Shown here in pieces: positions 3,317 to 19,394 of a stretch of DNA of 29,312 nt. The DNA comes from a virus, in the IMG/VR virus record IMGVR_UViG_3300049434_000097, positions 1 to 29,312 of that record; one strand, 5' to 3'. A model generated the notes under the pieces. That model saw only the letters and a program-made list of their open reading frames with translations. It searched no databases and had not been told where the DNA came from. How positions within the stretch are numbered: position 1 is the first letter of the stretch; every line of letters starts with the position of its first letter. The position numbers and the translations under genes are program-made.

Positions 3317-5140
3317 CTACATGAACGCCGCGGCGGCCTGGCCGGCCTGCAGAAGCGTGCTGAACAGGCTCGGCGTCTGGCTCGAAATCTGCGTGCCCGT
3401 CCCCGTCGTCTGCCCGGTCGTGTTGCCGTTCACCTGCCGCCCGACGAGGATGTCGTAGGGGGTCATGCCGCTGAGCTGGCCCATGAGCTGGAGCTGGGCC
3501 GGCCCCGCCATCGCATAGGCCTGCTCGATCGCCCTTTGCTGATCGCCGAGCTGCGCCATGGTGGCGAGATCGGCGCGGGTGCCGGCGCCATAATCGTTGG
3601 CGAGACCGCCGATCATGCCCGCCGCCTGAAGCGCGCGATTGGCGGCATTGTCGGCCTGGCCGGCGTTGAACTGCGACATCGCGTTGTTCGCCGCCGCGTT
3701 CGCTCCCGAAACGGCGGTGCGGTTCGCGACGTTGAACTGGGCGGCGCCGGCGTCGAGCTGGCCCTGCGCCAGGCCGTATTGGCCGGATATATTCTGGTTC
3801 GCCAGCGCGGCCTGCATCGCCGAATCGGCGCCGTAGCGCGCCGCGGTGTCGGCAAAGCCTGCCTGCGCGAGATCCCGCTGCTGCTGCTGCCCCAGCCCGA
3901 ATTGCGCGGCGGTGTCCGCGCGTCCGGCAAAATCGAGGGCCGCCCGGTTGGCGGCGTCGGCCGATTGAAGCCGGGAGGCATTGAAGGCCCCGCTGCCGAA
4001 CTGGCCGGCGGCGTCGGCCCGGCCGGCAAAATCGAGGCCCGCCTGCTGCCCGAACCCGGCATCGGCAAGCGCGCGCTGATAATCCTGCCCGGAATTGGCG
4101 AGGCTGACGCCGGTCTCGTTCTGCGCGTTGAACTGGCTCGCCTGCTGCCGGTTGGCGGCATCGGATTGCGAGAGGCCGGCGGCGGTGCCGAAGCCCTGGC
4201 TGAGGAGGCCGCTCTCCAGCGTGGCGCGGCCGCGAGCGAGATCGCCCTCCATCTGGCCCTGGGCGATGCCGAAGCGGGAGCCGCCGAAGGCGCCGTTGCG
4301 GGCGCCCTGCGCCTCGAGCGCGGCCCGCTGCTGCGCGGCATGGTTGTCGTAATCGGCCATGGCGGCATTGACGACCTGATCCTGCCACGGGTTCTGATAG
4401 GCGTTCAGATCGGTGAGCATGGTGGCCGGATCGGCGTGGGACGCCGTGGCGCCCGGAGTCCGCGCGACCTGGGCCGCGGCGATGTCCGCCGGGGCATAGG
4501 CCTGCGTCGCCGCGCCGATCGGCGCCCCGGTCCGCGCGGCGGCATAGGCTCCGGCCTGGCCGAGCTGCGGCGCCGAATAGCCCTGCCCGCCGACCAGATG
4601 GGGCCCGCCGAGTCGGGGCGCGTCGTAGCCGAAGGCGGTCTGCCGATAGGCCGGGCCGGGCTGGGTCGCGCCGCCGAACATGCTTTCGGGCTGGGCGCCG
4701 GCTCGAGGCTGGCCGGCGGGCAGCGGCATGTTGCCGCTATGGGCGGGCAGCGCCTTGTCGCCCGTCGGCATCCGCGCCCCGGCGGCGCTCAATTGCGGTG
4801 GCGGGGCGAGGCCCATGCCCGGGGCAAGGCCTCCCATCGCCCCGGCAAGGTTCGGCCCCCGGCTCCCGGCCTGCTGGGCCAGTTGCGAAGCCGCGGCGGT
4901 CTGTCCGCGCCAATCGCCGAGGCTGCCGGCATTCTGCCAGGCCATTTGCTGCAGCGGAGCGGCGGGGGCGACGGAGCCGTTCGGATCCATGTCGCCGAAC
5001 GCGCCGATCCGGCCGACATAATCCTGCGCGGCATTGGTCAACCAATCGGGCGTGACCGGCGTCGTCGTGCCGGTCTCGGTCTGGTTGCTGTTCTGCGAGG
5101 TGTTGGACGTGGTCTTGGTCCTGGAGGAGCTGAGGCCCAT
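3317..5140 (-). CDS. Large Ala/Gln/Gly-rich virion protein, probable DNA-ejection protein
   Basis: A 607-residue protein. I chose the ATG at 5140 because GAAGGAAAG lies just before it; upstream in-frame codons run through a terminator hairpin. Residues about 1-30 are Ser/Thr/Asn-rich. The middle is Gly/Pro/Ala-rich, and from about 270 there are degenerate helical repeats in which DFAGRAD, QSADAANR and AQFG-like motifs recur. No Cys is apparent. Such long Ala/Gln/Asn-rich helical proteins in the late tail region of podoviruses are often internal or ejected proteins (P22 gp7, gp16 and gp20 play this role), but I see no direct family match. It is followed by three tightly packed genes. A diverged copy of its leader is found at 9277-9442. 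Confidence 0.65.
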   Translation of the reverse strand: MGLSSSRTKTTSNTSQNSNQTETGTTTPVTPDWLTNAAQDYVGRIGAFGDMDPNGSVAPAAPLQQMAWQNAGSLGDWRGQTAAASQLAQQAGSRGPNLAGAMGGLAPGMGLAPPPQLSAAGARMPTGDKALPAHSGNMPLPAGQPRAGAQPESMFGGATQPGPAYRQTAFGYDAPRLGGPHLVGGQGYSAPQLGQAGAYAAARTGAPIGAATQAYAPADIAAAQVARTPGATASHADPATMLTDLNAYQNPWQDQVVNAAMADYDNHAAQQRAALEAQGARNGAFGGSRFGIAQGQMEGDLARGRATLESGLLSQGFGTAAGLSQSDAANRQQASQFNAQNETGVSLANSGQDYQRALADAGFGQQAGLDFAGRADAAGQFGSGAFNASRLQSADAANRAALDFAGRADTAAQFGLGQQQQRDLAQAGFADTAARYGADSAMQAALANQNISGQYGLAQGQLDAGAAQFNVANRTAVSGANAAANNAMSQFNAGQADNAANRALQAAGMIGGLANDYGAGTRADLATMAQLGDQQRAIEQAYAMAGPAQLQLMGQLSGMTPYDILVGRQVNGNTTGQTTGTGTQISSQTPSLFSTLLQAGQAAAAFM

Positions 5141-5155
5141 TGGCTTTCCTTCATG

Positions 5156-5177
5156 AAAAAAGCGGCCCGTGGGCCGC
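5156..5177 (-). terminator. Rho-independent terminator just upstream of the ejection-type gene
   Basis: Read on the minus strand, GCGGCC, a 4-nt loop and GGCCGC form a perfect 6-bp G+C stem followed at once by six Ts (plus-strand A tract 5156-5161). The tract ends only 15 nt before the ATG at 5140, so it lies in the leader of that gene and would stop transcripts coming from the cargo block. Confidence 0.7.
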
Positions 5178-5256
5178 CCTGCTGCTGGTGATGGTTTGGA
5201 ATCGGAACGGCAGGAACCCGACCGGCTTTGGAAGGCGGGCAATGGCCCGTGCCGGG

Positions 5257-5408
5257 CTAGAGCGTATCGACATTCAAAGGTCGCTGAGCATCCCCTCTCC
5301 CCGGCGGGGTGAGGGGGCTCGGCCTTCGGTACTGAATCTCGAACTCAGAACCCCCTCACCTAACCCTCTCCCCCCTGGGGAGAGGGCTTTAGGTCGCTGA
5401 ATGTCGAT
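5257..5408. repeat. MITE-like inverted-repeat element
   Basis: The outer part has a perfect 10-bp inverted repeat, ATCGACATTC at 5266-5275 against its complement at 5399-5408. Inside it, GGTGAGGGGG (5308-5317) pairs with CCCCCTCACC (5351-5360), and CCCTCTCCCC-type blocks flank these. The left end also carries CTAGAGCG (5257-5264), shared with the element at 12136. It has no coding capacity. The related segment at about 9397 lacks it, so it looks like an insertion of about 150 bp. Confidence 0.65.
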
Positions 5409-5703
5409 CCGTCCTAATTGTTCACGCCTTGCGTCGAATGTGTGGAGACGACCCATTGCGGGGCCAGATCGCGGGCGCCTTCGTGATTGAGCGCAGCACC
5501 TGGCGGCCCGCATCGCCTGGCCGGCAACGCTCCCGCAACCGGCATCCATCGCAGCCGGACTTGCGAGCGCGGTACTTGTCGATGCCATCGGGCGGCGGCT
5601 TCGCCTTCGCAGCGCCGGCGTCCCGCCTGGTCCGAACGGACCAGACGCGCCCTGTTGACTTCGCGCGCGCGGCGGTGAGAACGGAACGGTTCAGGAGACC
5701 GCA
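5409..5703. other. Non-coding gap with degraded repeat sequence
   Basis: No convincing gene. The first 50 bp (to about 5461) match the segment after the cargo-side leader copy at 9398-9442 and include the CGACCCATTGCGG half of the palindromic repeat. The rest is G+C-rich with no motif I recognise. Near the right end, TTGACT at about 5655 could be a -35 box for the secreted gene that follows, but no good -10 box is seen. Confidence 0.4.
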
Positions 5704-6372
5704 ATGACATTCACATTCGCTCGCACGATGCTCGCCTGCGTCGCCCTCGCGCTGGCGGGCACGGCGGCGATGGCCGGCGAACCCATTCCCGGCGTCGACA
5801 TCATCGTGAGGAAGAATCCCGGAGGGGATCTCATCGTCCACACCGACGGCAGCGGACGGGCCAGGCTCGAGCGGCTCGTACCCGGCAACTACACTCTTAC
5901 CATTCGGAGCGCGAGCCTGGCGGCGGCGATGGAGAGGCTCGCGGCGCCGCGGAGGTCGAACATCAAAGACGAAATGGGCCGCGAGTGGGACGCCCCTGCC
6001 GAGCGCGGCGGATCGCCTGGCAACAGGCCGCATGGCGGAGCGGTGCCTCCCCCCGGTGGCGCCCGCAGCTTACCCAGTTCCGGGCATCAAACCTCGCCCC
6101 GTGCCGGAATCGCCGTCGGCGACTTGAACGGCGACGGCCAAGTCGACGCCGCGAGGCGCGGCGCGCCGGTCATCCAGGTCGTCGTCGATCTGGGGCCGGC
6201 CGGCCGCTTCTCGCGGACCGCGCCTTATCGCCGCGACCATGCCGGAGAGGGCCTAACGCTCACCTTCACCATCCCCAACCGTGGGGGCGCCCGCCCAAGC
6301 GCGGCCGGCGGCACGATCGCAATCGACGCGATCTCCGACCAGGCCAGCGCCGGCAACCTCACTTCCTACTGA
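5704..6372 (+). CDS. Secreted protein with transthyretin-like fold segment, unknown function
   Basis: A 222-residue protein with a clear signal peptide (residues 1-25, ending AMA-GE). Residues about 28-66 (pattern PGV-I-V-KNPGG...DGSGRA-L--L-PG-Y-L-I) resemble a carboxypeptidase-regulatory or prealbumin-like beta-sandwich, common in secreted sphingomonad proteins. A DLNGDGQVD stretch near residue 140 is an EF-hand/dockerin-type calcium loop. The C-terminal part contains further beta-like strands. The ATG has GGAG about 7 nt upstream. It reads opposite to the phage genes, at the left end of the large cargo block. Function unknown; a periplasmic or surface role is inferred from the signal peptide. 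Confidence 0.65.
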   Translation: MTFTFARTMLACVALALAGTAAMAGEPIPGVDIIVRKNPGGDLIVHTDGSGRARLERLVPGNYTLTIRSASLAAAMERLAAPRRSNIKDEMGREWDAPAERGGSPGNRPHGGAVPPPGGARSLPSSGHQTSPRAGIAVGDLNGDGQVDAARRGAPVIQVVVDLGPAGRFSRTAPYRRDHAGEGLTLTFTIPNRGGARPSAAGGTIAIDAISDQASAGNLTSY

Positions 6373-6391
6373 CCAAATGCGAGAGAAGTTC

Positions 6392-6447
6392 ATGAGGACG
6401 ACCATGATCCGTGCCGCGCTCGCCTGCGCCGGCAGTCGCCCAATCTC
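6392..6447 (+). pseudogene. Truncated start of a second secreted protein
   Basis: After the stop of the secreted gene, a GAGAAG site precedes an ATG at 6392 encoding a typical export-signal start (Met-Arg-Thr-Thr-Met-Ile-Arg-Ala-Ala-Leu-Ala-Cys). The signal sequence is then lost in the 3' end of the oppositely oriented kinase gene. This looks like a gene cut at a recombination junction, though a chance reading is possible. Confidence 0.3.
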
Positions 6448-6912
6448 TCAGGCTACCGAATGCGGCTCGTCCAGATCAAGAGGTTCAAACCGTGCCTTGA
6501 GCAGCTCGAAGGTGGCAGGAGCGATATAAAGGCTTCGGTGAGCAGCCTCGTTTCTTAGCGCGATGCGCTTCAGGGCCTCGTCGTCGGTACAGCTCACGGA
6601 CCACAATAGGGGGGTAGCGCCGATAGCGCCCACCACGACCCGCACGCGATCCCGTTCAGCCCGAGACCAGAAACCGTAGTCGAGCACAACGTCGAGACCC
6701 AGCGCCAGGCAGCGAACCCAAAGAGGCTGCATGATATCGAGGATAGAAGCTGCCCTGTCCTGAAACGTGTCTGCGGGCGGGTCTTCGCCAAACAGGCGCG
6801 CCATCCACTCATCAGGCGTGAAGCGAACAGCGCTATGTTGACGCTCAAGCCTCCTGGCCAGCGTCGTCTTTCCCGATCCTAGGAAGCCGAACACAAGATG
6901 CGCCGTAGCCAT
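6448..6912 (-). CDS. P-loop small-molecule or nucleotide kinase (AAA_33-like)
   Basis: A 154-residue protein with a Walker A motif, GFLGSGKTT, at residues 9-17. Asp34-Glu35 follow in a position typical of zeta-toxin/chloramphenicol-phosphotransferase-type kinases, and D78-YGFWSR-AER87 supplies the core Asp and lid Arg residues. Size and motif order match single-domain ATP-binding proteins of the AAA_33 group, which phosphorylate small substrates or sugars. The substrate cannot be read from the sequence. It is a stand-alone minus-strand gene in the cargo block, facing the secreted gene to its left, with repeats upstream. Confidence 0.75.
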   Translation of the reverse strand: MATAHLVFGFLGSGKTTLARRLERQHSAVRFTPDEWMARLFGEDPPADTFQDRAASILDIMQPLWVRCLALGLDVVLDYGFWSRAERDRVRVVVGAIGATPLLWSVSCTDDEALKRIALRNEAAHRSLYIAPATFELLKARFEPLDLDEPHSVA

Positions 6913-7046
6913 TCCGTTCCGCGATCGCTTTCCTCTTCAATAGCAGACGACGTCAGACGCCGGCGACCCCGAGCATCGATCGCTTTCCAGGCCGAGGCAA
7001 TCACCCAGCCAATCACCCGTAAGCGCTAATCACCCGTAAGCGGCCG

Positions 7047-7095
7047 GTCCGCTTTCCACCCAAAGCGTACCGGCAGCTGCCGACCCATTGCGGAC
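7047..7095. repeat. Palindromic intergenic repeat (compound copy)
   Basis: A GTCCGC-TTTCCACCC start (7047) and a CGACCCATT-GCGGAC end (7090-7095) bracket a variable middle with its own CCGGCAGCTGCCG inverted repeat. Just before it, AATCACCCGTAAGCG is repeated in tandem (about 7011-7042). The same ends recur at 7590, 8185, 10020 and 12325. Confidence 0.6.
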
Positions 7096-7147
7096 TTTCC
7101 GGGCGTCTGCCAGTCTTAGCCTCAATTGGCGGTCAAAGGGCGTCCAT

Positions 7148-7582
7148 ATGAAGGTCTCCACTCTCGTCGGCGTTGCCATGTTGGCGACCATTTGTGCGAC
7201 GCCATCCCGCGCGAACTTCATTCCCCAAATGTCCCTGCAGAGCCAACTGATCGCGGCGGACCTGGCCCTGGTCGGAAGGCTCGGCGAGCCCACAGCCTGC
7301 GTGATCGAACGGCAATCGGAGCCCTGCGCAGAGATCCAGGCCGACGTCGTCCTTAAGGGGTCGCCGGCGACGTTCGGCATTCGATACCTTTTGCTCAGGC
7401 CGATGGGCATTAGCGAGTCCAGCGTTGAGGGAATGGCGCCATCCGGGACGGTGCTGATGTTCCTGCAGGCGACTAGGCCGCAAGGCCCGCAATCAAACCT
7501 GCTCACTGCGCGCCCGGAATATTATACTGCCGTTCAAGCCTACCGGTCCATCCTGCCGGTGAACGATCAAAACCTTCGATAA
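7148..7582 (+). CDS. Small secreted protein, unknown function
   Basis: A 144-residue protein starting at the ATG at 7148, preceded by AAAGGG. The first 22 or so residues are a signal peptide ending near ATPSRA. The mature part contains two Cys in an ACVIERQSEPCAE stretch and a predicted mixed alpha/beta body with a VVLKGSP turn, similar in feel to small periplasmic proteins that follow a lipoprotein/export path. No named family recognised. It is bracketed by palindromic repeats on both sides, like a self-contained cassette. Confidence 0.65.
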   Translation: MKVSTLVGVAMLATICATPSRANFIPQMSLQSQLIAADLALVGRLGEPTACVIERQSEPCAEIQADVVLKGSPATFGIRYLLLRPMGISESSVEGMAPSGTVLMFLQATRPQGPQSNLLTARPEYYTAVQAYRSILPVNDQNLR

Positions 7583-7589
7583 TCCCGCG

Positions 7590-7637
7590 GCGGCTTTCCA
7601 CCCCTACCGGACCGGCAGCTTTCGACCCATTGCGGAC
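7590..7637. repeat. Palindromic intergenic repeat (compound copy)
   Basis: A GGCTTTCCACCCC start and a CGACCCATT-GCGGAC end (7632-7637), with CGGACCGGCAGC in the middle. It is closely similar to the copy at 7047-7095, so the secreted gene lies between two directly repeated copies. Confidence 0.6.
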
Positions 7638-7672
7638 ATAAGCGCGCGGAACGGCCGACTGTGCTCCCACGG

Positions 7673-8140
7673 CTATCCAGCTCCTGCCATCATCGCGTCG
7701 ACGTCGGCGACGAAGGGCGGGATCAGGCCGGCTGAAGGAGCACTCTTCCACCACTCGGCGCCATAAGGCGTGCGCAGGAGGACAACGAACTGGGCGCAGG
7801 AGAATTCGAAGGTGCCCGGCGGAAACACGCCGCGCTGCGTCCGGTCCCAGATATGGAAGCTCGCCCAGGCATATTCGTTGAGCATCATGTCGAGCCGCAG
7901 CCGGTCGGGGGTGTCAAGCGCCCTCTTCCCGGAAAGGCCCTCGGTCATCAGCTCGGCGATGTCGCGGTGCTGGGTGATCGTCATGCGGACCGCGGTCCAC
8001 TGCGCCATCGTGCTGTTGTGCTCATTGCGTTGCAGCTCCGCAGTCTGCTGCCGGATCTGCAAGCCGACGAAGACCAGGGAGAGGATGACGCCCACACTTG
8101 CGACGATCTGTGACAGATAGGATAGCTGTTCGAGCGACAT
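7673..8140 (-). CDS. Single-span membrane protein, unknown function
   Basis: A 155-residue protein from an ATG at 8140, preceded by GGGGGGAA. Residues 9-27 form a single membrane helix, followed by a Gln/Arg-rich helix (LQIRQQTAELQRNEHN) and a predicted helical soluble domain. This layout, a short N-terminal anchor then about 120 helical residues with conserved Trp and Arg, matches a family of hypothetical proteins common in proteobacterial chromosomes. The soluble part would lie in the cytoplasm or periplasm depending on topology. It is divergent from the NTF2-like gene, with a repeat between them. Confidence 0.65.
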   Translation of the reverse strand: MSLEQLSYLSQIVASVGVILSLVFVGLQIRQQTAELQRNEHNSTMAQWTAVRMTITQHRDIAELMTEGLSGKRALDTPDRLRLDMMLNEYAWASFHIWDRTQRGVFPPGTFEFSCAQFVVLLRTPYGAEWWKSAPSAGLIPPFVADVDAMMAGAG

Positions 8141-8184
8141 GGCGCGTTCCCCCCAAATGCCGAGGGAGGGTAGACGAATGCAGC

Positions 8185-8208
8185 GTCCGCTTTCCACCCG
8201 TTGCGGAC
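8185..8208. repeat. Palindromic intergenic repeat (simple copy)
   Basis: The cleanest 24-bp copy: GTCCGC, TTTCCACCC plus three bases, then GCGGAC, so the ends pair perfectly. It lies between two divergent genes. Confidence 0.7.
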
Positions 8209-8262
8209 GCGAGGCTTCCAGCGCATCAGCTGTGGTGCGAACGTGGTGAGGGGGAATCCGCG

Positions 8263-8610
8263 ATGGGTGGTGCCGAGTTGGTCGAGCGGGCGGTTTCAGC
8301 CTTCAATGCTCACGATCCTGCGGCGTTTTCCGCGACCTTCGCCGAGGATGGGGCGATCTACGAATTTCCGGATCGGGCCGCCGCACAGGGAAGGAACCAA
8401 ATCAGAGACTATGTCGGCGGCATGTTCGAAGCCTTTCCCGCCGCGAAGGTCGCTCTCCTCGGCCGCATAGACCTTGGCCTGCGGCAGATCACGCACGAAC
8501 GTATCGACCGGGGAGACGGGTCGCCGGCCTATGAGGCCGGGCTGATTTACACCTTGTCGGGAGATGCGATTTCACGGATGGATTTCATCCGTGAGGCCCG
8601 GGGAGACTGA
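8263..8610 (+). CDS. NTF2-like / SnoaL-like fold protein
   Basis: A 115-residue protein with AGGGGGAA before the ATG at 8263. Its opening (ELVERAVSAFNAHDPAAFSATFAEDGAIYEFP) is the classic N-terminal helix-plus-strand of SnoaL/NTF2-like domains, with the 'N..D...F...F..D' pattern; the next strand has GRNQIRDYVGGMFEAFP, the family's second helix. The length is right for one domain. Members are ring-opening enzymes, isomerases or simply small-ligand binders. No catalytic set can be assigned here, so the activity is unknown. It is a plus-strand single gene within the cargo block. Confidence 0.75.
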   Translation: MGGAELVERAVSAFNAHDPAAFSATFAEDGAIYEFPDRAAAQGRNQIRDYVGGMFEAFPAAKVALLGRIDLGLRQITHERIDRGDGSPAYEAGLIYTLSGDAISRMDFIREARGD

Positions 8611-8687
8611 TCGCGACGGCCCATCGCCGCCAGATCGCTCCTCCCAACGAGGCGTGAAGCGGCTGAACAATCGCCGCGTCGAATCGG

Positions 8688-9152
8688 CTACAGGTGCAGA
8701 CCCAGAAACGACGCGCCGGGAACCGGATTGAATGAAACCGGATCGGCTGCAACGAAACCCATCGCCTCATATAGTTTCCGTGCGGAGACGGAGCTCTCCA
8801 TCACGTCCAGCCTCATCTCGCGGTAGCCGACGGTTCGCGCCTCAGCGATCAATCGGCCGACGAGGGCACGACCGAGATGGTGGCCACGCGCGCCCGGCCG
8901 GACATAAAGTCGTTTCATTTCACATATTTCGATACTGACCTTTCGAAATGCGACGCAGCCCTGGATGAAGCCGCCCCGATCGGCGAGCAGGACGCACCCG
9001 GGAGGCGGTGCGTATTTGCCGGGCAAGTTCTCGAACTCGGCGTGGTTTCCCTGAAAATCAAGATTCACCGGGGAATTCGCGATAAACTCTCGCCAGATGC
9101 CGAGCACCGAGGCTGTATCGTCGGGAAACGATGCGTGCCTGATGACGGTCAT
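8688..9152 (-). CDS. GNAT-family N-acetyltransferase
   Basis: A 154-residue protein. Residues 85-95 carry the acetyl-CoA pyrophosphate-binding loop (R-P-G-A-R-G-H-H-L-G-R), and ARKLYEAMGF at 124-133 is the typical motif B/C-terminal element. Length and motif order fit a standard single-domain GNAT. It transfers acetyl from acetyl-CoA to an amine; the substrate cannot be inferred. The start at 9152 is chosen because homologous domains begin near TVIRHA; longer readings upstream run into duplicated leader sequence and are not credible. No strong ribosome site is visible. Confidence 0.8.
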   Translation of the reverse strand: MTVIRHASFPDDTASVLGIWREFIANSPVNLDFQGNHAEFENLPGKYAPPPGCVLLADRGGFIQGCVAFRKVSIEICEMKRLYVRPGARGHHLGRALVGRLIAEARTVGYREMRLDVMESSVSARKLYEAMGFVAADPVSFNPVPGASFLGLHL

Positions 9153-9156
9153 AGGA

Positions 9157-9279
9157 TCACTGGTTGGCGGGAGACCATGGCAGCATTGCGGCGGCCGTTT
9201 GCGGCAGCCTCGGCGGTCCATTGCAGAGCATCCGCGGCGCGGGTGATCCGGACGAGGATCCGCGGGGGGGCAAGCCCAT
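9157..9279 (-). pseudogene. Remnant of a duplicated phage gene start
   Basis: A diverged copy of the leader and first codons of the ejection-type gene at 5140: GAAGGAAA-type site, an ATG at 9279, then Met-Gly-Leu and a Ser-rich stretch, as in that gene. The frame closes after 40 codons at 9157, five bases before the GNAT gene. The rest of the gene is absent. A real small peptide is possible but unlikely. Confidence 0.4.
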
Positions 9280-9442
9280 GGGGTTTCCTTCATGAAAAAG
9301 GCGGACCCGGGGGCCGCCTTGCTTCCGGTGATTGTTGGAATGGAGCGGCCGGAGCCCGACCGGGTTCGGAGGGCGGGCAAAAGCCGGTGCCGGATTATCT
9401 GTTCACGCCTTGCGTCGAAGGTCTGGGAACGACCCATTGCGG
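9277..9442. repeat. Diverged duplicate of the 5138-5461 leader segment
   Basis: The plus strand from 9277 to about 9397 aligns with 5138-5258: shared TTTCCTTCATGAAAAA, terminator stem, CGACCGG, GGCGGGCAA and GTGCCGG landmarks in the same order. About 9398-9442 then aligns with 5416-5461 (TTCACGCCTTGCGTCGAA, CGACCCATTGCGG). The element at 5257-5408 is missing here. Confidence 0.65.
9295..9318 (-). terminator. Terminator hairpin in the duplicated leader
   Basis: The counterpart of the terminator at 5156. On the minus strand a G+C stem (GGCGGCCC paired, with one mismatch, to GGTCCGCC) is followed by five Ts (9295-9299). It may still stop transcripts running towards the GNAT gene. Confidence 0.5.
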
Positions 9443-9574
9443 ACATTCCCGCTTCGGGTACGGTAACCAGGATGAGCGCGATCAAAGCGGCGGCCCACGA
9501 TCATCGGGGCCGCAGCGCCCGTACCTCCGATCGTTTTCTGGGCGGCGACAGGGCAACAGTCGCCCTCGAAATCC
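9319..9574. other. Non-coding gap downstream of the XRE gene
   Basis: The left part is the duplicated leader and the half-palindrome CGACCCATTGCGGAC (9430-9443). The right part, up to the XRE stop codon at 9575, is G+C-rich with no recognisable gene or hairpin. Confidence 0.4.
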
Positions 9575-9922
9575 CTACGTTCTGACCACGATCTCAACTT
9601 GCTGAGGAGACACCTCAAACAGAGCGGCGATCTGGTGCCGAAACTGATCCAAACGCTCGCCTCGGCTTAATTGGGGCTGATCCGGGGAACGAGCGACTTC
9701 GGCGGACGGGGGTTGCGGCCTACCGTTGAGCTGCATCCAACTGACTTCAAGTGCCTTCTCCAGCTTCAACAGGACTTCCAGTCGGGGCCTGACGCCATGC
9801 TCCTCCCAATTGTTCACGGCAGTCGGGCTTACACCCACTCTCCGGGCCAGATCAGACTTGCTGAGGCCGGCAAGCTTCCGGAAGTGCTTGATTGGGCTGC
9901 CTTCATGTCGCGGCATAGCCAT
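9575..9922 (-). CDS. XRE-family HTH transcriptional regulator
   Basis: A 115-residue protein with a helix-turn-helix of the Cro/C1 type at residues about 11-63; the recognition pair is SKSDLARRVGVSPTAVNNWE. The C-terminal part (70-115) is a short helical tail ending in QQVEIVVRT. GGAGA lies about 8 nt before the ATG at 9922. Upstream lie two copies of TTGTTTAAAC at an 18-bp spacing, which look like its own operator. It could be a cargo regulator or a decayed phage repressor; no phage cro-like partner is seen beside it. Confidence 0.8.
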   Translation of the reverse strand: MAMPRHEGSPIKHFRKLAGLSKSDLARRVGVSPTAVNNWEEHGVRPRLEVLLKLEKALEVSWMQLNGRPQPPSAEVARSPDQPQLSRGERLDQFRHQIAALFEVSPQQVEIVVRT

Positions 9923-10019: not shown

Positions 10020-10043
10020 GTCCGCTTTCCGCCCATTGCGGAC
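10020..10043. repeat. Palindromic intergenic repeat (simple copy)
   Basis: A GTCCGC-TTTCCGCCC-ATT-GCGGAC copy with one change from the 8185 copy in the middle. It lies between the divergent XRE gene and the following secreted gene. Confidence 0.65.
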
Positions 10044-10069: not shown

Positions 10070-10468
10070 ATGTGGCAACTGGCTGCGCTTGCCCTGGTCC
10101 TGGAGCCTCCCGACCGAGCCGGCGGTGTGACCGCGGAAGGCGTGGCCTTCGGGCCTCGGATGACGCTCACGTGCACATGGTTCACAAACTTCGAGAACAG
10201 CAGGTTCGAGCAGTGCCGGAGCGATGGAGCAAACCTCCTTCCCTCCAGAGACGGAGCTTCGGTGCAGTGCGTCGGGCGAAGCTGTGAGCAACTGGACGCG
10301 GGGGCTCGACGGGCCGATCGCTCGAGAAGATCGGAGCCGCCCCGGGGGAGCTTCACCGTCCGAATAGTGGGCCGAATAAGCGTTCACCAACACGAGCGCC
10401 GGTATCTTGGGGACGGCGCCAGCACGGTGCTGGTCGAAAGAGTCCTGAGCGTCCGCAGGTCGAGGTAA
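10070..10468 (+). CDS. Small secreted protein, unknown function
   Basis: A 132-residue protein. It starts with a short hydrophobic stretch (WQLAALALVL) that may be a signal peptide or anchor. The body has Cys in TCTWFTNFENSRFEQC and QCVGRSCEQ contexts and a beta-rich C-terminal section (GSFTVRIVGRISV...RRYLGDG...VLVERVLSV). Composition and Cys spacing look like a real protein rather than a chance reading. GAGG stands 3 nt from the ATG, which is short; a leaderless transcript is possible. I recognise no family. It is divergent from the XRE gene and shares its upstream region. Confidence 0.6.
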   Translation: MWQLAALALVLEPPDRAGGVTAEGVAFGPRMTLTCTWFTNFENSRFEQCRSDGANLLPSRDGASVQCVGRSCEQLDAGARRADRSRRSEPPRGSFTVRIVGRISVHQHERRYLGDGASTVLVERVLSVRRSR

Positions 10469-10641: not shown

Positions 10642-12099
10642 TCAGTTGGCAGGCAGTCGATGCGCGGCGAACAGCGCGATGCTCTCGGCGGTGCCAGGAT
10701 CCCGGTTGGAGAGGACGATCACGGTGAAGCCACTGCCCGGGAAATAGTATAGCGCGCCGCACTGGCCGGGAGCGTCGCCAGTATGTCCGATGTAACGGCC
10801 GGTTCCCTCCATCGACCCACCGAAATCGAAGTGGGCGAACTGCCCGTCATCCGTTCTTATCCCGCCGTCGACAAGCCTCTGGAGCGTGTCGCTCCGCAAC
10901 AGCCGATGGGACGTCAGGCCGTTGACGAACCTGTAGAAGTCGCCGACTGTCGAGTAGCCGCCCCCAGCAGACGTGCCGCCGAGTGGAAGCGTCTCATCGG
11001 CCCGCCTGAGCCGAGGTCCGGACCCCATATAGCCGATGGCCCGGCGCGGCAGAACGATGCTCTCCGGCAGGTTTCCGGTGGAGGCCATGCCCGCCGGATC
11101 GAAGATATTCCGCCGAATATAATCGTCGTAGCTGAGCCCGGATACTTCTTCCACGATCCGTCCAAGCAGGATGAAGCCGTAGTTGCTGTATTCGGAGCGG
11201 CTTCCGGGGGTGAAATCCAAAGGACGCGGGCCAAACAGCTCCACATAATCCCTCAAGCTGCGCAGCGACGCCCTGTGCGCATCGCGTTCGGGCCCGAATA
11301 TGTCTCCCGTTCCGCCGCTGTGGGAGAGAAGGTGGGCGATCGTCACCCTGGCTGCGACGTCCCGGTTCGGGTAATCGGGCAGATAGCGTCCGATGGGCGC
11401 CGCCAGGTCGAGCCGGCCATCCTGGGCCAACTGCATGATCGCGACGGCCGTGAACATCTTGCCCATCGAACCGAACCGAAACTGAGTGTCGAGGGCGTTC
11501 GGCCTGGGGTTCTCGCGATCCGCCAGACCATAAGCTCTCTGGAAGAGCACACGCCCCCTTCGCGCCAACAGGACGGCCCCCGAAAACCGATCGCTTGCCA
11601 CCCTGCTCGCCAGCCGCGCCTGGACAGCCTGGATCAGCATGGGTGGCGCGAGCTTCGGCGGTCTGGCGAAGCCGGGCGGAACCTCATCGGTCATGCGAAG
11701 GAAGACGAATTCGATCCTGTCGGCGGCGGTTGCGCCCAATCTGAATTGCGCGGTGGCGTAGGAATCGAAGTTCGGATCGAACATCCACAGGTCCACGCTG
11801 CCCGGATCGGCGGATTTGACGCCGCAGAGCTGAAGGCCGCGCAGATTGCTCCTCAATTCCAGCCACCGCTCTCGAGGCCCAAGCAGCACGGGGCCACGAT
11901 CCTCGATGAAGCGGAGGTAAGCCGCGTCATCCGCGGTGTCGATCGCATGGAGCCATTCCTGGGCCAGCCGCACCGCCGAAATGGTCGACGGCAACTGCGA
12001 GCCACCCGTTGGCGGAGCCTGTGCACAATCGGTCGGTACCGACGAAGGCGAGCCAGGACTTGCAGCGGCAAGCAACATTGCGAGAGCGGTCGGAAGCAT
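10642..12099 (-). CDS. Serine beta-lactamase-family hydrolase (class C/esterase type)
   Basis: A 485-residue exported protein with a signal peptide at residues 1-18. Residues about 40-145 form an N-terminal NTF2-like region. The catalytic domain follows with all three family motifs: S211-M-G-K214 (nucleophile and base), Y304-S-N306, and H439-T-G441 in place of the KTG box. The HTG variant is common in EstB-type esterases and D-aminopeptidases of this fold, so hydrolysis of an ester or peptide is more likely than antibiotic resistance. It should act in the periplasm. GGAG lies 8 nt before the ATG. CTAGAGCG-type repeat ends flank the gene on both sides, as if moved as a unit. Confidence 0.85.
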   Translation of the reverse strand: MLPTALAMLLAAASPGSPSSVPTDCAQAPPTGGSQLPSTISAVRLAQEWLHAIDTADDAAYLRFIEDRGPVLLGPRERWLELRSNLRGLQLCGVKSADPGSVDLWMFDPNFDSYATAQFRLGATAADRIEFVFLRMTDEVPPGFARPPKLAPPMLIQAVQARLASRVASDRFSGAVLLARRGRVLFQRAYGLADRENPRPNALDTQFRFGSMGKMFTAVAIMQLAQDGRLDLAAPIGRYLPDYPNRDVAARVTIAHLLSHSGGTGDIFGPERDAHRASLRSLRDYVELFGPRPLDFTPGSRSEYSNYGFILLGRIVEEVSGLSYDDYIRRNIFDPAGMASTGNLPESIVLPRRAIGYMGSGPRLRRADETLPLGGTSAGGGYSTVGDFYRFVNGLTSHRLLRSDTLQRLVDGGIRTDDGQFAHFDFGGSMEGTGRYIGHTGDAPGQCGALYYFPGSGFTVIVLSNRDPGTAESIALFAAHRLPAN

Positions 12100-12324: not shown

Positions 12325-12348
12325 GTCGGCTTTCCACCCGTAGCGGAC
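12325..12348. repeat. Palindromic intergenic repeat (simple copy)
   Basis: GTCGGC-TTTCCACCC-GTA-GCGGAC, with one end base changed from the 8185 copy. It is the last copy before the phage genes resume at 12405 and so marks the edge of the cargo block. Confidence 0.65.
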
Positions 12349-12404: not shown

Positions 12405-12779
12405 TCAAGGCCGCAATTCCTTCCTGAGCGCGACCTGGTGCGGGGCATAGCCACGGGCTTTGAGGGCGCGCATCCAGCCGGAGCGGCTTTCGACGATCGC
12501 GCAGGTGCAGCCCAGCGCCTTCCCCCACGCCTCGGCCCGGGGGATGAGCTGTTCATTGATCTCCTCGATCCGCCCCGCCGCGACGAGCCCGTGCACGGCT
12601 CGCGCGCCGCCGGGATAATCCCTTATCTCGGCAACGATGGCAGCGTGCTCGCCGACCCAGAGCCGGGCGCGGCCGGAGAGGATCAGGGCGTCGAGATGCT
12701 CGATGGGGTAGAAGGCAGGATCCATCGCCTCCGCGAGTTGGGGGCGGAAGCGGACGTAGCCTGCCCAATCGGGGATCAT
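12405..12779 (-). CDS. GNAT-like phage protein, probable virion accessory
   Basis: A 124-residue protein whose C-terminal part (CAIVESRSGWMRALKARGYAPHQVALRKEL) is the typical last helix and strand of the GNAT fold. No clear acetyl-CoA pyrophosphate loop is seen, so enzymatic activity is doubtful. Its ATG overlaps the stop of the gp10-like gene by four bases (ATGA), showing it belongs to the tail operon. GNAT-like small proteins without obvious activity occur in podovirus virion modules (T7 gp13 is one), which supports a virion or assembly role by analogy. It is the last phage gene before the large cargo block. Confidence 0.7.
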   Translation of the reverse strand: MIPDWAGYVRFRPQLAEAMDPAFYPIEHLDALILSGRARLWVGEHAAIVAEIRDYPGGARAVHGLVAAGRIEEINEQLIPRAEAWGKALGCTCAIVESRSGWMRALKARGYAPHQVALRKELRP

Positions 12780-14269
12780 CGCTGGCCCGTCGCGACCACG
12801 TCCAGACAGGGCTTGCCGAACCGAAACGCGGATAGCGCGGCCGAACTGGAGAACTTGAACTCCCCGATCATGCCCGAAGCCCTGAAATCCTTCTTCGTCG
12901 CGCCCACAGAGAGTGTGTAAGGCCCTATCGTCACCGCAGTCGATTGCGGCCTGTCGCGCATATAGGCGGTGAGGGAAATGTCGCCGATCTGCCCGCTGAA
13001 ATCGGGGATGATCCGGGTTATCATTGTCCGGCGCGCCGCGTTGTCGAGATACATGTCCCCCACGGTGATCGAGGGGCTGATCGAAGATGCGACGCCGCCC
13101 CCGTCATAGGCAACGCCCGTCGTGTCACCGTGCTTGAAAATGTGGAGGTCATTCGCGGCGAGGAAGGTGAGCGGGGCCTGATCCAGAGAGTTGATGATCG
13201 GCGAGACACAGATTGCGGTTCTCGGCATCGATCCGCGGAACCAGACCGGGCGCTCGGCGCGGGCGCTCTCCGCGATCGAATACGCGACATAGCGAGAGCC
13301 CGACGAGGCGTTGTCGCGGGTGTCAGCGTAGAAAAACCAAAGCTCTAGATAGACGGGCAGCGCCACCATCCGGTCATATGGAGCCGCGCCTGGATCGTAA
13401 TTCGCCAGGAGTTCATTACGGATGGGGCATGGGATCGTGAAGGGCAGCGCCCCCGGCGTATATTGATGCAGGCTAAGGTCGGTTCCCATCCAATAGGCCG
13501 ACGCATTGACCACGCAGACCGCGTCGCGGCTCGTCGGACCGGCAACATCGTCGATAATGTCGAAGCGGTAGGTCTGGCTGGGGTCGCCGATATATTGGCC
13601 GAGATAGACCTTCGCCTGCGTCCAAACCACGACATAGCTACCCACCCGACGCGCGGCGACGATCGAGCCGGAGCCTTCAAGGATATGTTCGAAAGCGTTG
13701 TTCGTCGCGCTGGTCGTCCAGTTGGTGTAATCCTCCAGATCGGAGCCGCGGATGCACAGCCCGTTGAAGGTTGTCGAGACTTCCTCGTTGCAGCCGAATG
13801 CGAGAACCTGGCGCTGGGCCGTGACGAGCATGTCCGTGATCGCGTCCGGCGCCTGCGTGACTTCCGTCGCGACGCCCGCGCCCGTATATTTGTAGAGCGT
13901 GGAGCCACTTGGCACGAACAATGCGACTGCGCCGAAAGCATCGAACGCCCAAGATGTAATCGTGCCGCCGGCCGGGACGCCCACAGCCGTTATGTCGCTG
14001 ATCGTGGTTGTCAGGCTCCCGGCGGAGCTCGCGTAAGTCTTGCTCGTCATGCCATAAAGGGCGCGATAGGAGCTGCCGACCTTTAGCACCGCTATGCCAT
14101 TGCACCCGCCGCCTGCGGCGATCGTCGCGGGCGCTGACCAGCCCTCAATGACTTGAGGCTTCCCCTCGTAAAAGCGCACATTGTTGCCGTCGATATACCG
14201 GCCCGCCGAGGAAAAGGCCGTGTCGTCGGAATTCAGTCCAGGCTGCGGAGCAAGTGGAACGAGGGTCAT
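12776..14269 (-). CDS. Tail hub/DNA-stabilisation protein, P22 gp10-like
   Basis: A 497-residue protein starting at an ATG at 14269 with GGAGG 9 nt upstream; further upstream in-frame codons overlap the glycosyltransferase and are not part of it. It is beta-rich throughout, with repeated aromatic-Gly turns suggesting a propeller-like fold, as in P22 gp10, which closes the portal and joins the tail needle. The opening (PLAPQPGLNSDDTAF...GRYIDGNNVRFYEGKPQVIEGW) is a typical start of this group. P22 gp10 is 472 residues, so the size agrees. It is followed by the GNAT-like gene with ATGA overlap. Confidence 0.75.
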   Translation of the reverse strand: MTLVPLAPQPGLNSDDTAFSSAGRYIDGNNVRFYEGKPQVIEGWSAPATIAAGGGCNGIAVLKVGSSYRALYGMTSKTYASSAGSLTTTISDITAVGVPAGGTITSWAFDAFGAVALFVPSGSTLYKYTGAGVATEVTQAPDAITDMLVTAQRQVLAFGCNEEVSTTFNGLCIRGSDLEDYTNWTTSATNNAFEHILEGSGSIVAARRVGSYVVVWTQAKVYLGQYIGDPSQTYRFDIIDDVAGPTSRDAVCVVNASAYWMGTDLSLHQYTPGALPFTIPCPIRNELLANYDPGAAPYDRMVALPVYLELWFFYADTRDNASSGSRYVAYSIAESARAERPVWFRGSMPRTAICVSPIINSLDQAPLTFLAANDLHIFKHGDTTGVAYDGGGVASSISPSITVGDMYLDNAARRTMITRIIPDFSGQIGDISLTAYMRDRPQSTAVTIGPYTLSVGATKKDFRASGMIGEFKFSSSAALSAFRFGKPCLDVVATGQR

Positions 14270-14302
14270 ATCCGCAGCCTCCGTCTGTGCTATGTAATGG
14301 AG

Positions 14303-14965
14303 ATGAAAACAGCTATTTTGACCCCGGTCCACGGCTCGCCCCGCGCGCTCTACACGCAGAGCCTCGGCAACATGCTGCTGCGCACCGCGCGGGACCGGCC
14401 CGACATCGAAATTCTCTACCGGATCGCCGAAGGGCATTTGATCCAGAACCGGAATTTCCTGGCGAAAACCGCGATCGAATGGGGCGCCGATTATTGCCTG
14501 TGGATCGATGCCGACATGAAATTCCCCGATGGCGCGCTGATCGCGCTGGCCGCGCACGAATTGCCGATGGTCGCGGCCAACTGCCCGACCCGCTCCACCC
14601 CGCCCTGCCCGACCGCGGGCGCGAACGGAAAACCGGTTTATTCCCCCGCGGGCGCGACCGGCCTCGTGCCGGTCGACTTCATCGGACTGGGCTTCACGAT
14701 GATCCGCACCTCGGTGCTGAAGGAGCTCGGCACGCCCTTGTTCGCCGCGGACCCGTCGCAGGACAAATGGCCCGGCGAGGACATGCACCTGTGCCGCCGC
14801 ATCCGCGCCGCCGGCATCCCCATCCAGATCGATCAGGACCTTTCGCAGCATATCGGCCATGTCGTCGAGCATGTTTACACCAACGACATCGCCGCCAGGC
14901 TGGAGGCGGCCCGCCCCGGAATCAGCCCGCCTCCAGCGCCGAAACCCGCGCCTCCAACCGTTTGA
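14303..14965 (+). CDS. GT-A-type glycosyltransferase, phage cargo
   Basis: A 220-residue protein on the strand opposite to the virion genes. Residues 1-10 begin a Rossmann-like strand (MKTAILTPVH). D69-A-D71 is the metal/nucleotide-sugar DxD motif, in WIDADMKFP. GEDMHLCRRIRAAG (158-171) is the usual acceptor-side helix with its conserved E/D. The C-terminus is Pro-rich. The likely role is transfer of a sugar to host surface polysaccharide or a virion protein. No good ribosome site is present, but TATGTA at 14291-14296 could be a -10 box giving a leaderless transcript. An ATG at 14297 is also possible. Its 3' end overlaps the tail-fibre gene by 44 bp, tail to tail. Confidence 0.8.
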   Translation: MKTAILTPVHGSPRALYTQSLGNMLLRTARDRPDIEILYRIAEGHLIQNRNFLAKTAIEWGADYCLWIDADMKFPDGALIALAAHELPMVAANCPTRSTPPCPTAGANGKPVYSPAGATGLVPVDFIGLGFTMIRTSVLKELGTPLFAADPSQDKWPGEDMHLCRRIRAAGIPIQIDQDLSQHIGHVVEHVYTNDIAARLEAARPGISPPPAPKPAPPTV

Positions 14966-16226
14966 CGACCGAGAGCAGGCCGACGACGATGCGTTCGTAC
15001 CGGACGCTCTCGGGCGCGCCTTCCCCATTGAAATGGACCAGCGGCCTCAGCGCGGCCGCGACCTCTTCGGCGATCAGGCCCCAATGCTTGCGCCGGCCAT
15101 CGTCCGCTTTGGCGGTCGAGCGATAGCTGACCGGCCTCAGGGCGAGGATCCGATCGGCTTCGGCATCGGAAAGGCCGCGGACATCCGTCTTGTAGCGGGC
15201 CGACGAGGTCGAGCGCAGCAGGACCGCGCCGTCGCTCGCCTGGTAGAGATTCGCCGCCGAGGCGGTGGTGGACGAGGCGGGATAGATGCCGCCCGTATCG
15301 ATCTTGCAGTCCTGGACGCCGCTATGGTTCTGGAACAGATAGCCGCTGATCGCGTGCAGCTCCATATAGACGGAGCCGTTGCCGAGGATGATCTGGTTTC
15401 GGCTGTCGATGGGCGCGTAGAGCGTGGCCGTCATCACCGAAGAGGGCGCGATCGCGCCCAAGGTCAGGGTCAGCGACGGCGTCGCCCCGCCCGAGGAGGA
15501 TCCCGAGACGCCGTTCGCGGTGGTGACGCCGATCGCGGTGACGGTCCCCGCATTGCCGTTCAGCGTGCCGCCCGAGAAGCTGAGATTGCCGCCGATGGCG
15601 ACGGCGCTCCAGCTATCGACGCCGGAGCGGTAATAGATGGTGCCGGTGCCGGTCAGCGCCTCCAGGGCCGCGAGATCGTTGGCGAGCGCGAAGGTCGGGT
15701 TGCCGGCCGCTCCATTCCCGTTCGCGACCGAAAGGCCGGCGGCCGGGCCGGTGATCGTCCGCACCGCCCAGGCATCGGTCCCGGTCCGCGCCGCGATGCC
15801 GCTCCCCGCCAGCCCCTCGACCGCGGCCAGATCGTTGGCGAGGGCGAAGGTGGGATTGCCGGCAGCCCCCGCCGGATTGGCGATCGTCAGGCCGGCCGCC
15901 GGGGCCGCAAGCGAGCGCTTGGCGAAGGTATCGGCGGCACTTTCCACGACGAAGCCCGCCGCCGCGTCCAGCCCCGCCAGCCCGGCCAAGGTGGCGTCAA
16001 AAGGCTGGAGCTGCTGCCACCCCGCCCCGTCCGAATAGGTCACCCGCGAGACGGTCGCGTTCCAGGCGAGGCCCTGGGCGAAATCCGCGGCGGCCGGCAG
16101 ATCGGCGGCGGCATAATCCTTCAGCCGCAGCGGCGCCGGCCAGATGTCGCCCAGAGCGGCGCGGATCGAATTCAGCACCTGCCGCAGCCAGACGGGGGAT
16201 GCGGTGGGTTCGAAGAAATTGCGCAT
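14922..16226 (-). CDS. Tail fibre with S74 self-cleaving chaperone domain
   Basis: A 434-residue protein. Residues about 1-110 form the base. Two 52-residue repeats (113-164 and 165 to about 212, motif LTIAN/LSVAN...AAGNPTFALANDLAA) and a weaker one before them form the shaft. The C-terminal 100 residues match the intramolecular chaperone/peptidase S74 domain: S341-S342-A-R-Y-K346 (the Ser-Lys autocleavage pair), ALRPVSYR, HWGLIAEEV and a final coiled coil (VVKRLEARVSALEA). The chaperone would trimerise the fibre and then cut itself off. The ATG lies 6 bp after the adaptor stop with no strong ribosome site, so coupled translation is likely. Confidence 0.85.
   Translation of the reverse strand: MRNFFEPTASPVWLRQVLNSIRAALGDIWPAPLRLKDYAAADLPAAADFAQGLAWNATVSRVTYSDGAGWQQLQPFDATLAGLAGLDAAAGFVVESAADTFAKRSLAAPAAGLTIANPAGAAGNPTFALANDLAAVEGLAGSGIAARTGTDAWAVRTITGPAAGLSVANGNGAAGNPTFALANDLAALEALTGTGTIYYRSGVDSWSAVAIGGNLSFSGGTLNGNAGTVTAIGVTTANGVSGSSSGGATPSLTLTLGAIAPSSVMTATLYAPIDSRNQIILGNGSVYMELHAISGYLFQNHSGVQDCKIDTGGIYPASSTTASAANLYQASDGAVLLRSTSSARYKTDVRGLSDAEADRILALRPVSYRSTAKADDGRRKHWGLIAEEVAAALRPLVHFNGEGAPESVRYERIVVGLLSVVKRLEARVSALEAG
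15591..15890. repeat. Two in-frame 156-bp repeats in the tail-fibre gene
   Basis: Two directly repeated units of 52 codons. The AGATCGTTGGCGAG...GCGAAGGT core at about 15678 is matched, nearly identical, at about 15834. A weaker third copy precedes them. Such repeats allow the fibre to change length by recombination. Confidence 0.6.
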
Positions 16227-17639: not shown

Positions 17640-18293
17640 CTAGCGGTAGCTTTCCAATATCTCAGCGAGCGGCGTGAATGATGGGTGCTGAAAATCGATT
17701 AAGCCCGCAAAGGGCGGATCCTGAAAAACTGAACCTAGCGGCACGAATGGATCACGTTGGCAGGCGGCAGCTAGATAGGACCGCAACCACATTTTGCCGT
17801 ATTGCTGAGGCGGCCAAGCGTCAGCGTGCGTCGTGGCGCCAAACATATCGACATGCCCAGCAATTATCCCGTTTGCAGAAGCCGCACCGTCTAAGCACAC
17901 CGTCTCAAGATTGCCTGGCTGATTCATTAGAGGCAGCATTAAAATCTGCATCGAGGGATACCCCCCCCGACGTATGAACGGCTCTAAAGGTGGTTCATGC
18001 CCTCGGGCTTCAAGTTGGCTTCTGATCAACGCGAAACTGGCGTTCTGATCAGCATCATTGTCCGCCACGATTACAATGTGGCGAACTGACGCAAAGCTTG
18101 GGATAGTCTTCAACGCGGAAAGTGCGCCCGCAAATTTCCCGTTGCCGCCCTTCGGGGCGTTTAAGCCGGAGTGGAGGATTTTGAATGCGGGCAGATTCCG
18201 TTCAGTTATGAGCCGCTTAAAAAAGAACTTATCTTCCACCCCTTCAACCAACAATAGCAGAGGCTGGTTGAATCTAATATCAAGTCCGGCCAC
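17640..18293 (-). CDS. TOPRIM-domain protein, DUF3226-like, partner of the ATPase
   Basis: A 217-residue protein. Residues 12-22 carry the first TOPRIM motif (LLLVEGVED, with Glu17 and Asp21) and 73-82 the second (IVIVADNDAD, with Asp78, Asp80 and Asp82), the metal-binding set of OLD-type nucleases and topoisomerases. The overall length and 'FFFKRLI' context fit the DUF3226 family. A GTG start follows directly on the ATPase stop codon (TGA-GTG), with GGAG about 9 nt before it, so translation is coupled. No AAA domain is present; this looks like the separate effector subunit of a split OLD-type or PARIS-like system, nicking DNA or RNA. Low G+C sets it apart from the virion genes. Confidence 0.75.
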   Translation of the reverse strand: MAGLDIRFNQPLLLLVEGVEDKFFFKRLITERNLPAFKILHSGLNAPKGGNGKFAGALSALKTIPSFASVRHIVIVADNDADQNASFALIRSQLEARGHEPPLEPFIRRGGYPSMQILMLPLMNQPGNLETVCLDGAASANGIIAGHVDMFGATTHADAWPPQQYGKMWLRSYLAAACQRDPFVPLGSVFQDPPFAGLIDFQHPSFTPLAEILESYR

Positions 18294-19394
18294 TCACCTC
18301 ATCTCCAAGCCGAACTCCAACCCCTCTCGGAGATCGCTCATCGTGAGCTTATTGATACAGGGCTCGCCCTCTTCATTTCTACGCATCCGCCAAAAGGCGA
18401 TCTCGTGTTCGTACTCCACGCCAGCTTCAGCAAGCGCCTTAAGCCATTCTTCGTTGTGCGTAGAGAGAAATAATTGACTATCCATCAGCTTGTTTGCATT
18501 TAGAAGTGCTCTCCAGAAAGGCAAGTGGTGGGTATGGTAGATCCCATTCTCGATTTCATCCACTAATACGACTGATCTTTGACGAGCAGCAATAGATAGT
18601 AAGATTGCGACCATTCTGTTAATTGCACCAGAGGTCTCATTAAGAGGTATTTTAACGGGGGACCCTTCCACGGTTGCGTGCACTGCAGGCTGACCAGCAA
18701 CAGAACCCACGCTCAACCCTTTTATCCAAGGATATTCATGGTTGAAAATCTCCAGGAACGCCTCTTCTCCAAATCTGTTGCTCAGTTTTGTGAATTCATC
18801 TGCTACCTCGGAAGGACCTGGAGCATACCCTGCATTGTAGAAATGGAATTCAGGGAGCTTCTCTATCACCGGGTCCAACCCAATCCCCTGAGCCGTATAC
18901 TCAGGGACGTGCGAATAAAGAACTCCTTCATTGTCCCGCCACGTGAAGGTGGTGTTTCCCCCTGCCTTAGGAGCATCATCCGCCAGCGGTATCAGCCCCT
19001 TTTGCGGCCCATGAGAAAGAAAGAACGAACGCGCCTCCGGTCCACTCCCCGACAAGGTTACCGATATCGGCCGATCAAAATCGAAATGGCGAAAGAGGCT
19101 ACCCCATAGAGCCTCCTCGATCCTATTCGCGGTTCCCGTGGCCATAGGTGCCATCCCCCGCCATTGTCGAATTCTCACCGCGCCGCCCGGAGAATTACAT
19201 AGCGCTAGAAATATGGCTTCAAGCAGAGCGGTCTTTCCGCTTCCATTATCGCCAACGATGACATTGACGCGGGCTACATCCTCGACAGTAAGCCTCTCGA
19301 AACAACGAAAATTCCTAATCTCGATGTTTCGGATCATCTGATACCCCGCAGCCAAGCAGCCGCGGTGGCCGCGACTCTCTAAGTGACAGGTCAT
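18294..19394 (-). CDS. ABC/OLD-type ATPase, sensor half of a putative defence pair
   Basis: A 366-residue protein from the ATG at 19394, which has a strong GGGAGG site; an internal ATG at 19337 gives 347 residues beginning MIRNIEIRNFRCF, the usual family start. In the short numbering: Walker A GDNGSGKT at 29-36, an ABC signature-like NETSGAINR at 233-241, Walker B VVLVDEIE at 256-263 and the switch STH at 292-294. This is the ABC ATPase of OLD, RecF-like and AriA proteins. The C-terminal nuclease domain of full OLD proteins is missing and is replaced by the separate TOPRIM gene that follows. G+C is about 40% at 18541-18600 against 75% at 20221-20280 in the coat gene. It lies directly downstream of the coat gene, with no visible promoter. 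Confidence 0.8.
   Translation of the reverse strand: MTCHLESRGHRGCLAAGYQMIRNIEIRNFRCFERLTVEDVARVNVIVGDNGSGKTALLEAIFLALCNSPGGAVRIRQWRGMAPMATGTANRIEEALWGSLFRHFDFDRPISVTLSGSGPEARSFFLSHGPQKGLIPLADDAPKAGGNTTFTWRDNEGVLYSHVPEYTAQGIGLDPVIEKLPEFHFYNAGYAPGPSEVADEFTKLSNRFGEEAFLEIFNHEYPWIKGLSVGSVAGQPAVHATVEGSPVKIPLNETSGAINRMVAILLSIAARQRSVVLVDEIENGIYHTHHLPFWRALLNANKLMDSQLFLSTHNEEWLKALAEAGVEYEHEIAFWRMRRNEEGEPCINKLTMSDLREGLEFGLEMR

Follow-up and report, generated by a model that had tools for sequence, protein, structure and literature searches.

The window analysed here is a whole IMG/VR viral contig of 29,312 bases (IMGVR_UViG_3300049434_000097), and the feature in question is a block of accessory cargo that lies between two virion genes, one of them an ejection-type gene preceded by a leader sequence. 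With a probability of about 0.77, this cargo (5.46-12.32 kb) is an array of mostly single-gene cassettes belonging to an integron-like system that is nevertheless not an integron, and whose recombinase would be supplied by the host. The evidence that carries this reading comes from the sites that punctuate the cargo, their single orientation, a site-bounded swap between two related phages, and the convergence of chromosomal site arrays on the gene for a small tyrosine recombinase.

Cassette sites and the phage hotspot

When scored with a position weight matrix (PWM), the cargo contains the following sites:

about 5438-5461, degenerate cassette site at leader copy 1, below the PWM threshold
7047-7070 and 7072-7095, + strand, site pair, PWM scores 17 and 23
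7589-7612 (weak) and 7614-7637, + strand, site pair, PWM scores 11 and 32
8185-8208, + strand, site, PWM score 35
9421-9444, + strand, site at the distal end of leader copy 2, PWM score 30
10020-10043, + strand, site, PWM score 36
12325-12348, + strand, outermost site, PWM score 37

The 24-nt core GTCCGCTTTCSACCCATTGCGGAC occurs at 7047, 7072, 7614, 8185, 9421, 10020 and 12325, in all seven cases on the + strand, whereas both strands carry cargo genes; two related phages, L014 and L015, carry five sites each, all five in a single orientation with respect to the phage. The consensus of 93 sites is GTCCGCTTTCSACCCATTGCGGACATT, in which the arms AAY-GTCCGCTT and TTGCGGACATT flank a conserved asymmetric centre that takes one of two forms, TCCACCCA or TCGACCCA, C and G being equally frequent at one position. 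This centre is conserved as strongly as the arms, and arms around an asymmetric centre are the typical layout of a tyrosine-recombinase core site. The conserved pairing expected of sites that recombine as folded single strands is absent, as the arm pairs do not covary: at pair 4/21 the counts (C-G 59, T-G 14, C-A 9 and T-A 2) equal the expectation without covariation. The arms also appear to differ from the general (not host-specific) dif consensus.

Outside the phage, the site core is found in one alphaproteobacterial genus, with 32 copies in genome G307 and 33 in G317 versus 0-1 for a reversed control. Within this genus it is frequent in some members only, forming clusters at 300-1000 bp spacing, and the chromosomal arrays hold about one gene per site-to-site interval. 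At 16 loci selected because their sites cluster, each site has the same orientation as the next in 45 cases and the opposite one in 6 (p = 1.8e-8), and in the Sphingomonas daechungensis record NZ_CP060781.1 all 16 sites, spread over 21.3-58.9 kb, lie on one strand. A 669-nt chromosomal unit shared at 80% identity by two different genomes (L076, positions 4221-4882, and L081) has both ends flush with sites. In the open-licence literature, no description was found of the site sequence or of sphingomonad cassette systems. Six more viral contigs (L144-L149) contain the exact site consensus, and the stretches fetched from them hold no relatives of the window's proteins.

For the comparison with related phages, IMG/VR loci that have a relative of either the ejection-type protein or the virion gene at 12776-14191 were mapped with the window's proteins. 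In L009, L011 and L016, which have no cargo, the homolog of the gene at 12405-12779 lies directly next to the ejection-type gene, and in L017 just 127 nt separate the two genes, with a hairpin, a T run and the leader only; no cassette site was found in any of the cargo-free relatives. At the same junction, the cargo measures about 2.5 kb in L014 and L015 and 7 kb in the window, and since cargo size thus varies at one junction across related phages, the junction represents a hotspot. The genes of the window's cargo and the phage gene that bounds it are:

5704-6372, + strand, carboxypeptidase-regulatory-like domain gene (PF13620), not separated by a site from the AAA gene
6448-6912, - strand, AAA_33 ATPase gene (PF13671), 95% identical protein in L014 and L015
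7148-7582, + strand, open reading frame (ORF), cargo gene with no function assigned, no Pfam match
7673-8140, - strand, ORF, cargo gene with no function assigned, no Pfam match
8263-8610, + strand, SnoaL-like gene (PF12680)
8688-9152, - strand, GNAT acetyltransferase gene (PF00583), downstream of leader copy 2
9575-9922, - strand, HTH_3 regulator gene (PF01381)
10070-10468, + strand, possible cargo gene, ORF only
10642-12099, - strand, serine beta-lactamase-fold hydrolase gene (PF00144)
12405-12779, - strand, phage gene bounding the hotspot on its upstream side, 88% to L014/L015

A search of the cargo against Rfam gave no credible match, and the GNAT gene has no relative in the viral contigs.

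Three comparisons place the edges of homology at sites. The homology of the window's backbone to L014 and L015 (12774-12323 and 12773-12325) ends at site 12325. The AAA unit (6427-7070), which is 94.6% identical in L014 and L015 and set between other neighbours there, begins its homology at site 7047. Finally, L014 and L015 are 94-95% identical on either side of one swapped segment: the shared sequence breaks off where one site ends (7190-7213 / 7449-7472) and is found again from the middle of another onwards (8103-8126 / 8120-8143), the sequences in between, of about 0.9 and 0.65 kb, being unrelated. A sequence-only reading of this DNA had suggested that the segment at 5.3-9.3 kb would be a single acquisition. 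The cargo in fact extends further, as the match to related phages begins again only at about 12.32 kb, and a single event is not supported, since seven sites on one strand divide the cargo, since the AAA unit alone is common to L014 and L015, and since these two phages differ from each other by a single site-bounded segment.

A recombinase at the point of convergence

In genome G307, one cassette array includes the gene for a tyrosine recombinase (P0001) of about 195 aa. It is a XerC/FimB-like protein consisting of the catalytic domain only (PF00589), its nearest solved relative by sequence is XerD, and the catalytic residues R-K-HxxR-H-Y are invariant in 13 homologs. Homologs were sought by protein only, in 396 genomes of one order, namely that of genome G001, which has a relative of the ejection-type protein; the sampling of genomes is uneven, and some of the assemblies are incomplete. 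Among the closest homologs with fetched loci (69-80%), sites lie within 1.5 kb of the gene in 6/6, compared with 3/24 for distant homologs of 56-61% (p = 1.4e-4) and with 0/20 for other integrase loci of the site-bearing genomes (p = 4e-6).

The orientation of these sites is equally regular. In the 20-kb stretches around seven close homologs (69-81% identity), all sites but one are directed towards the recombinase gene (3' side, 34 of 34; 5' side, 40 of 41; overall, 74/75; p = 4e-21), so that two arrays converge on it. Five of the seven loci have a site 65-119 nt upstream of the gene's matched part, and for the two recombinase copies of genome G330 the distance is about 570 nt. At locus L151, the gene has 9 sites on one side and 13 on the other, and ORFs fill the intervals, with products that include a SpoU methylase, a GNAT protein, a DUF4304 protein, an acyltransferase-SGNH protein and proteins with no assigned function. 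The same locus encodes, as a gene inside the cassette array, a large serine recombinase (13979-15730; Resolvase and Recombinase domains), which was set aside as the enzyme of the array because it is the small tyrosine recombinase that recurs at the convergence point.

Inverted pairs of variant sites, whose centres include TTTTAGCCAAAA and TTTCGGCCAAAA, bracket some more distant homologs (L106, L123 and L134), a hint of coevolution between site and enzyme. Arrays that lack a recombinase are present on chromosomes, on a plasmid-like record and in the phage family of the window. In addition, two viral contigs (L166 and L167) carry a gene for a 63% homolog of the recombinase, which is followed downstream by weak sites on a single strand.

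The leader repeat, the proposed history and its alternatives

At its inner end, the cargo meets the ejection-type gene and its leader, and a second copy of this leader lies within the cargo:

3317-5140, - strand, ejection-type virion gene, an ORF of 607 aa, after leader copy 1
5135-5258, - strand, leader copy 1, gene-proximal part, with ribosome-binding site, GC hairpin plus T run, and leader
5259-5418, no strand assigned, inverted-repeat insert of 160 nt splitting leader copy 1, resembling miniature inverted-repeat transposable elements or repetitive extragenic palindromic (REP) elements, DNA fold z = -6.7
5419-5461, - strand, leader copy 1, distal part, ending in the degenerate cassette site, 91% to 9400-9442
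9274-9442, - strand, leader copy 2

The same-orientation repeat noticed in the sequence-only reading is borne out by alignment. In blastn within the record, on the same strand, 9274-9393 matches 5135-5255 at 84% (E 3.7e-30) and 9400-9442 matches 5419-5461 at 91% (E 2.5e-12). With the insert left out (9274-9442 against 5135-5258 plus 5419-5461), 142 of 165 columns are identical (86.1%), and the local score of 191 stands well above that of random segments, which score no higher than 32 (1000 shuffles) or 40 (the 1388 other 169-nt stretches of the contig that were scored, both strands). The repeat was also said to include the first codons of the gene, of which ATGGGC alone recurs, the sequence beyond being unrelated. 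The 160-nt insert is present neither in leader copy 2 nor in L014 and L015; partial matches to it occur on Azospirillum plasmids, in up to 17 places per record. As for the hairpin of copy 1, it was identified by eye and is not listed by a scan for consensus terminators.

The repeat is composite. The distal end of each copy is a dyad site of ~30 bp with the consensus AATGTCCGCTTTCSACCCATTGCGGACATT, and the outer ~24 nt belong to the dispersed site family, while the remaining 120-145 nt or so are the true leader of the ejection-type phage gene. Homologs of the gene-proximal part of copy 1 are found in L014, L015 and partly in L017, and the gene itself has homologs at the equivalent position in several IMG/VR phages. 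The leader proper was not found in the genomes searched: leader DNA gave only partial matches of 26-31 nt, in 8 of 296 genomes of one order, and a 35-nt distal leader pattern had no match in 99 genomes. The sequence-only reading had named a dispersed repeat as grounds for refuting it, and the leader is such a repeat in its outer ~24 nt only. A 28-nt leader pattern scanned over the viral contigs likewise found no match, because the two copies differ by an indel. The ejection-type proteins, scanned against the genomes, yielded one locus only. The window's ejection-type gene has no Pfam or PHROG match, so the label "ejection" rests on position.

Under the proposed mechanism, partly palindromic sites of ~30 bp, all in one orientation, would bound each cassette, and a small host-encoded tyrosine recombinase (~195 aa) would target the sites of the family carried by the phage. 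The phage array, itself without a recombinase, would sit in the hotspot between the virion gene at 12405-12779 and the leader and hairpin of the ejection-type gene, anchored by the outer site near the former and by the inner leader site, which is degenerate in copy 1. Cassettes could then be gained, lost or swapped by recombination at the sites, with the enzyme acting in trans. The window would hold two such arrays in a row, one from leader 1 to site 8185 and the other from leader 2 to site 12325, with the SnoaL and GNAT genes between them, and leader copy 2, which ends in a site as leader 1 does, would be the anchoring end of the second array. As judged from the leaders, the most likely source of this second array is a different phage of the family, because the two copies are equidistant from the leader of another phage (copy 1 to copy 2, 86.1%; copy 1 to L014, 86.3%; copy 2 to L014, 83.6%). 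The copies being as far apart as the leaders of different phages, a recent tandem duplication is unlikely. With somewhat better than even odds, we extend this to a gene-capture platform distinct from integrons in sphingomonad-type alphaproteobacteria, with a minimal tyrosine recombinase, two converging arrays and sites of ~30 bp that come with two kinds of centre, in which phages and plasmid-like replicons would ferry recombinase-less arrays.

Several observations weigh against the cassette reading. No homolog of the recombinase is encoded in the window, L014 or L015, and most site-bearing genomes of the one genus searched have no full-length homolog (some assemblies may be incomplete), so that many arrays lack the enzyme in cis. 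Some intervals hold two genes, the far (3') edge of the AAA unit lies away from any site, and the site at leader copy 1 is degenerate. Moreover, recombination at the sites is deduced from sequence comparison, none having been observed. Part of this would suit RecA-dependent homologous recombination between dispersed short repeats, with no dedicated recombinase acting on the phage, given the phage contigs and the many arrays in which the ~195-aa family is missing. This alternative is unlikely, as it leaves the recombinase-centred geometry of the chromosomes unexplained, and repeats of 24-60 nt with 70-90% identity are short substrates for RecA. Even less probable is that the sites are REP elements or bacterial interspersed mosaic elements spread by a Y1 transposase (REP-associated tyrosine transposase), the cargo differences being unrelated events nearby. 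The sites are indeed short, dispersed, palindromic and largely intergenic, but a Y1_Tnp gene was found in 0/10 site-bearing genomes by a search whose control was positive, neither the strongly conserved asymmetric centre nor the lack of covariation between the arms fits, and one orientation over many genes with convergence on one tyrosine recombinase would be unexpected.

A classical integron or a CALIN, with attC sites and IntI, would account for mostly single-gene cassettes, one-orientation sites and a tyrosine recombinase, and is nonetheless given almost no credence, because the recombinase exceeds the cut-off of no integron-integrase model and lacks an N-terminal domain, and the site consensus lacks the attC core GTTRRRY/RYYYAAC. 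A last alternative, compatible with the cassette system, concerns leader copy 2 only: the sequence-only reading had also considered a tandem copy of the ejection-type gene, whose place GNAT and SnoaL would later have taken here. In its favour, the order of leader, hairpin, ribosome-binding site and ATGGGC is retained, and the GNAT gene follows downstream on the same strand. We regard this history as possible though doubtful, because ATGGGC, where coding homology ends, would be its sole trace, the leaders diverge as much as those of different phages, and no phage with the window's GNAT was found. The accompanying idea that cargo entered between two related leaders stands as far as the second copy at 9274-9442 and the missing cargo of the relatives are concerned. 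If the cassette reading is true, it would explain the trade of single accessory genes among alphaproteobacteria and their phages and provide a second, independent case of integron-like evolution; the site would be a ready sequence tag for listing cassettes in any genome, and phage cargo regions would be read as shufflable arrays instead of single insertions.

Phage context and comparison with known systems

The phage is P22-like, as both a P22-type portal (PF16510, E 7e-192) and coat (PF11651, E 1e-34) are encoded, on the - strand together with the terminase large subunit (PF04466) and scaffold. Its host is probably a Sphingomonas-like bacterium, Sphingomonas itself entering only via the S. 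daechungensis record. Portal, coat, scaffold and terminase are common to the window and P22-like podophages, from which it differs in its ejection-type gene and several neighbours without family match, and in the hotspot with its cassette array. Elsewhere in the window, a gene pair between coat and the distal virion genes (17640-19328) encodes an AAA_15 ATPase (best PADLOC matches AbiLi / PDC-M38A) and a DUF3226 protein (PDC-M38B), and is likely a phage-borne defence system. A glycosyltransferase-like ORF (14254-14965, + strand) with a weak Anp1 match lies on the opposite strand within the structural operon and is conserved at 70-74% in L014/L015.

FimB/FimE-type tyrosine invertases resemble the recombinase in being enzymes of ~200 aa with no separate N-terminal domain, whose gene is bracketed by inverted sites. 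The match to NF007370 is weak, however (E 1.8e-5, far below the cut-off), and what accompanies the enzyme here is cassette arrays and not a phase switch. In the pdif (dif) modules of Acinetobacter, known from plasmids and chromosomes and once from a prophage (PMC6449649), accessory genes likewise lie between short tyrosine-recombinase core sites with two classes of central sequence. Those modules rely on host XerC/XerD, and their sites alternate in orientation (XerC/D and XerD/C) (PMC6449649), whereas the sites described here have near-symmetric arms (GTCCGC/GCGGAC), a uniform orientation (same-direction counts of 45:6 and 11:0, instead of oppositely oriented bounding sites) and a dedicated recombinase between arrays.

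The closest parallels are found in integrons and in CALINs, that is, clusters of attC sites without an integrase, including those of phages (PMC9892861). As in these systems, the window has an array of short cassettes with one-orientation sites; mostly single-gene cassettes and recombinase-less arrays in phages are further common features, and in some genomes a tyrosine recombinase adjoins the arrays (PMC9892861). In contrast to IntI, the recombinase is a short XerC/FimB-like protein that falls far below the cut-off of the NCBIfam XerC-type models, and the sole model naming an integron integrase (archaeal XerA, NF040815) gives it 60 of the 220 bits required. The sites, too, are ~30-bp dyads without the attC core, and it is two arrays that converge on the recombinase. 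Finally, the system belongs to Alphaproteobacteria, in which integrons are very rare (PMC9024848).

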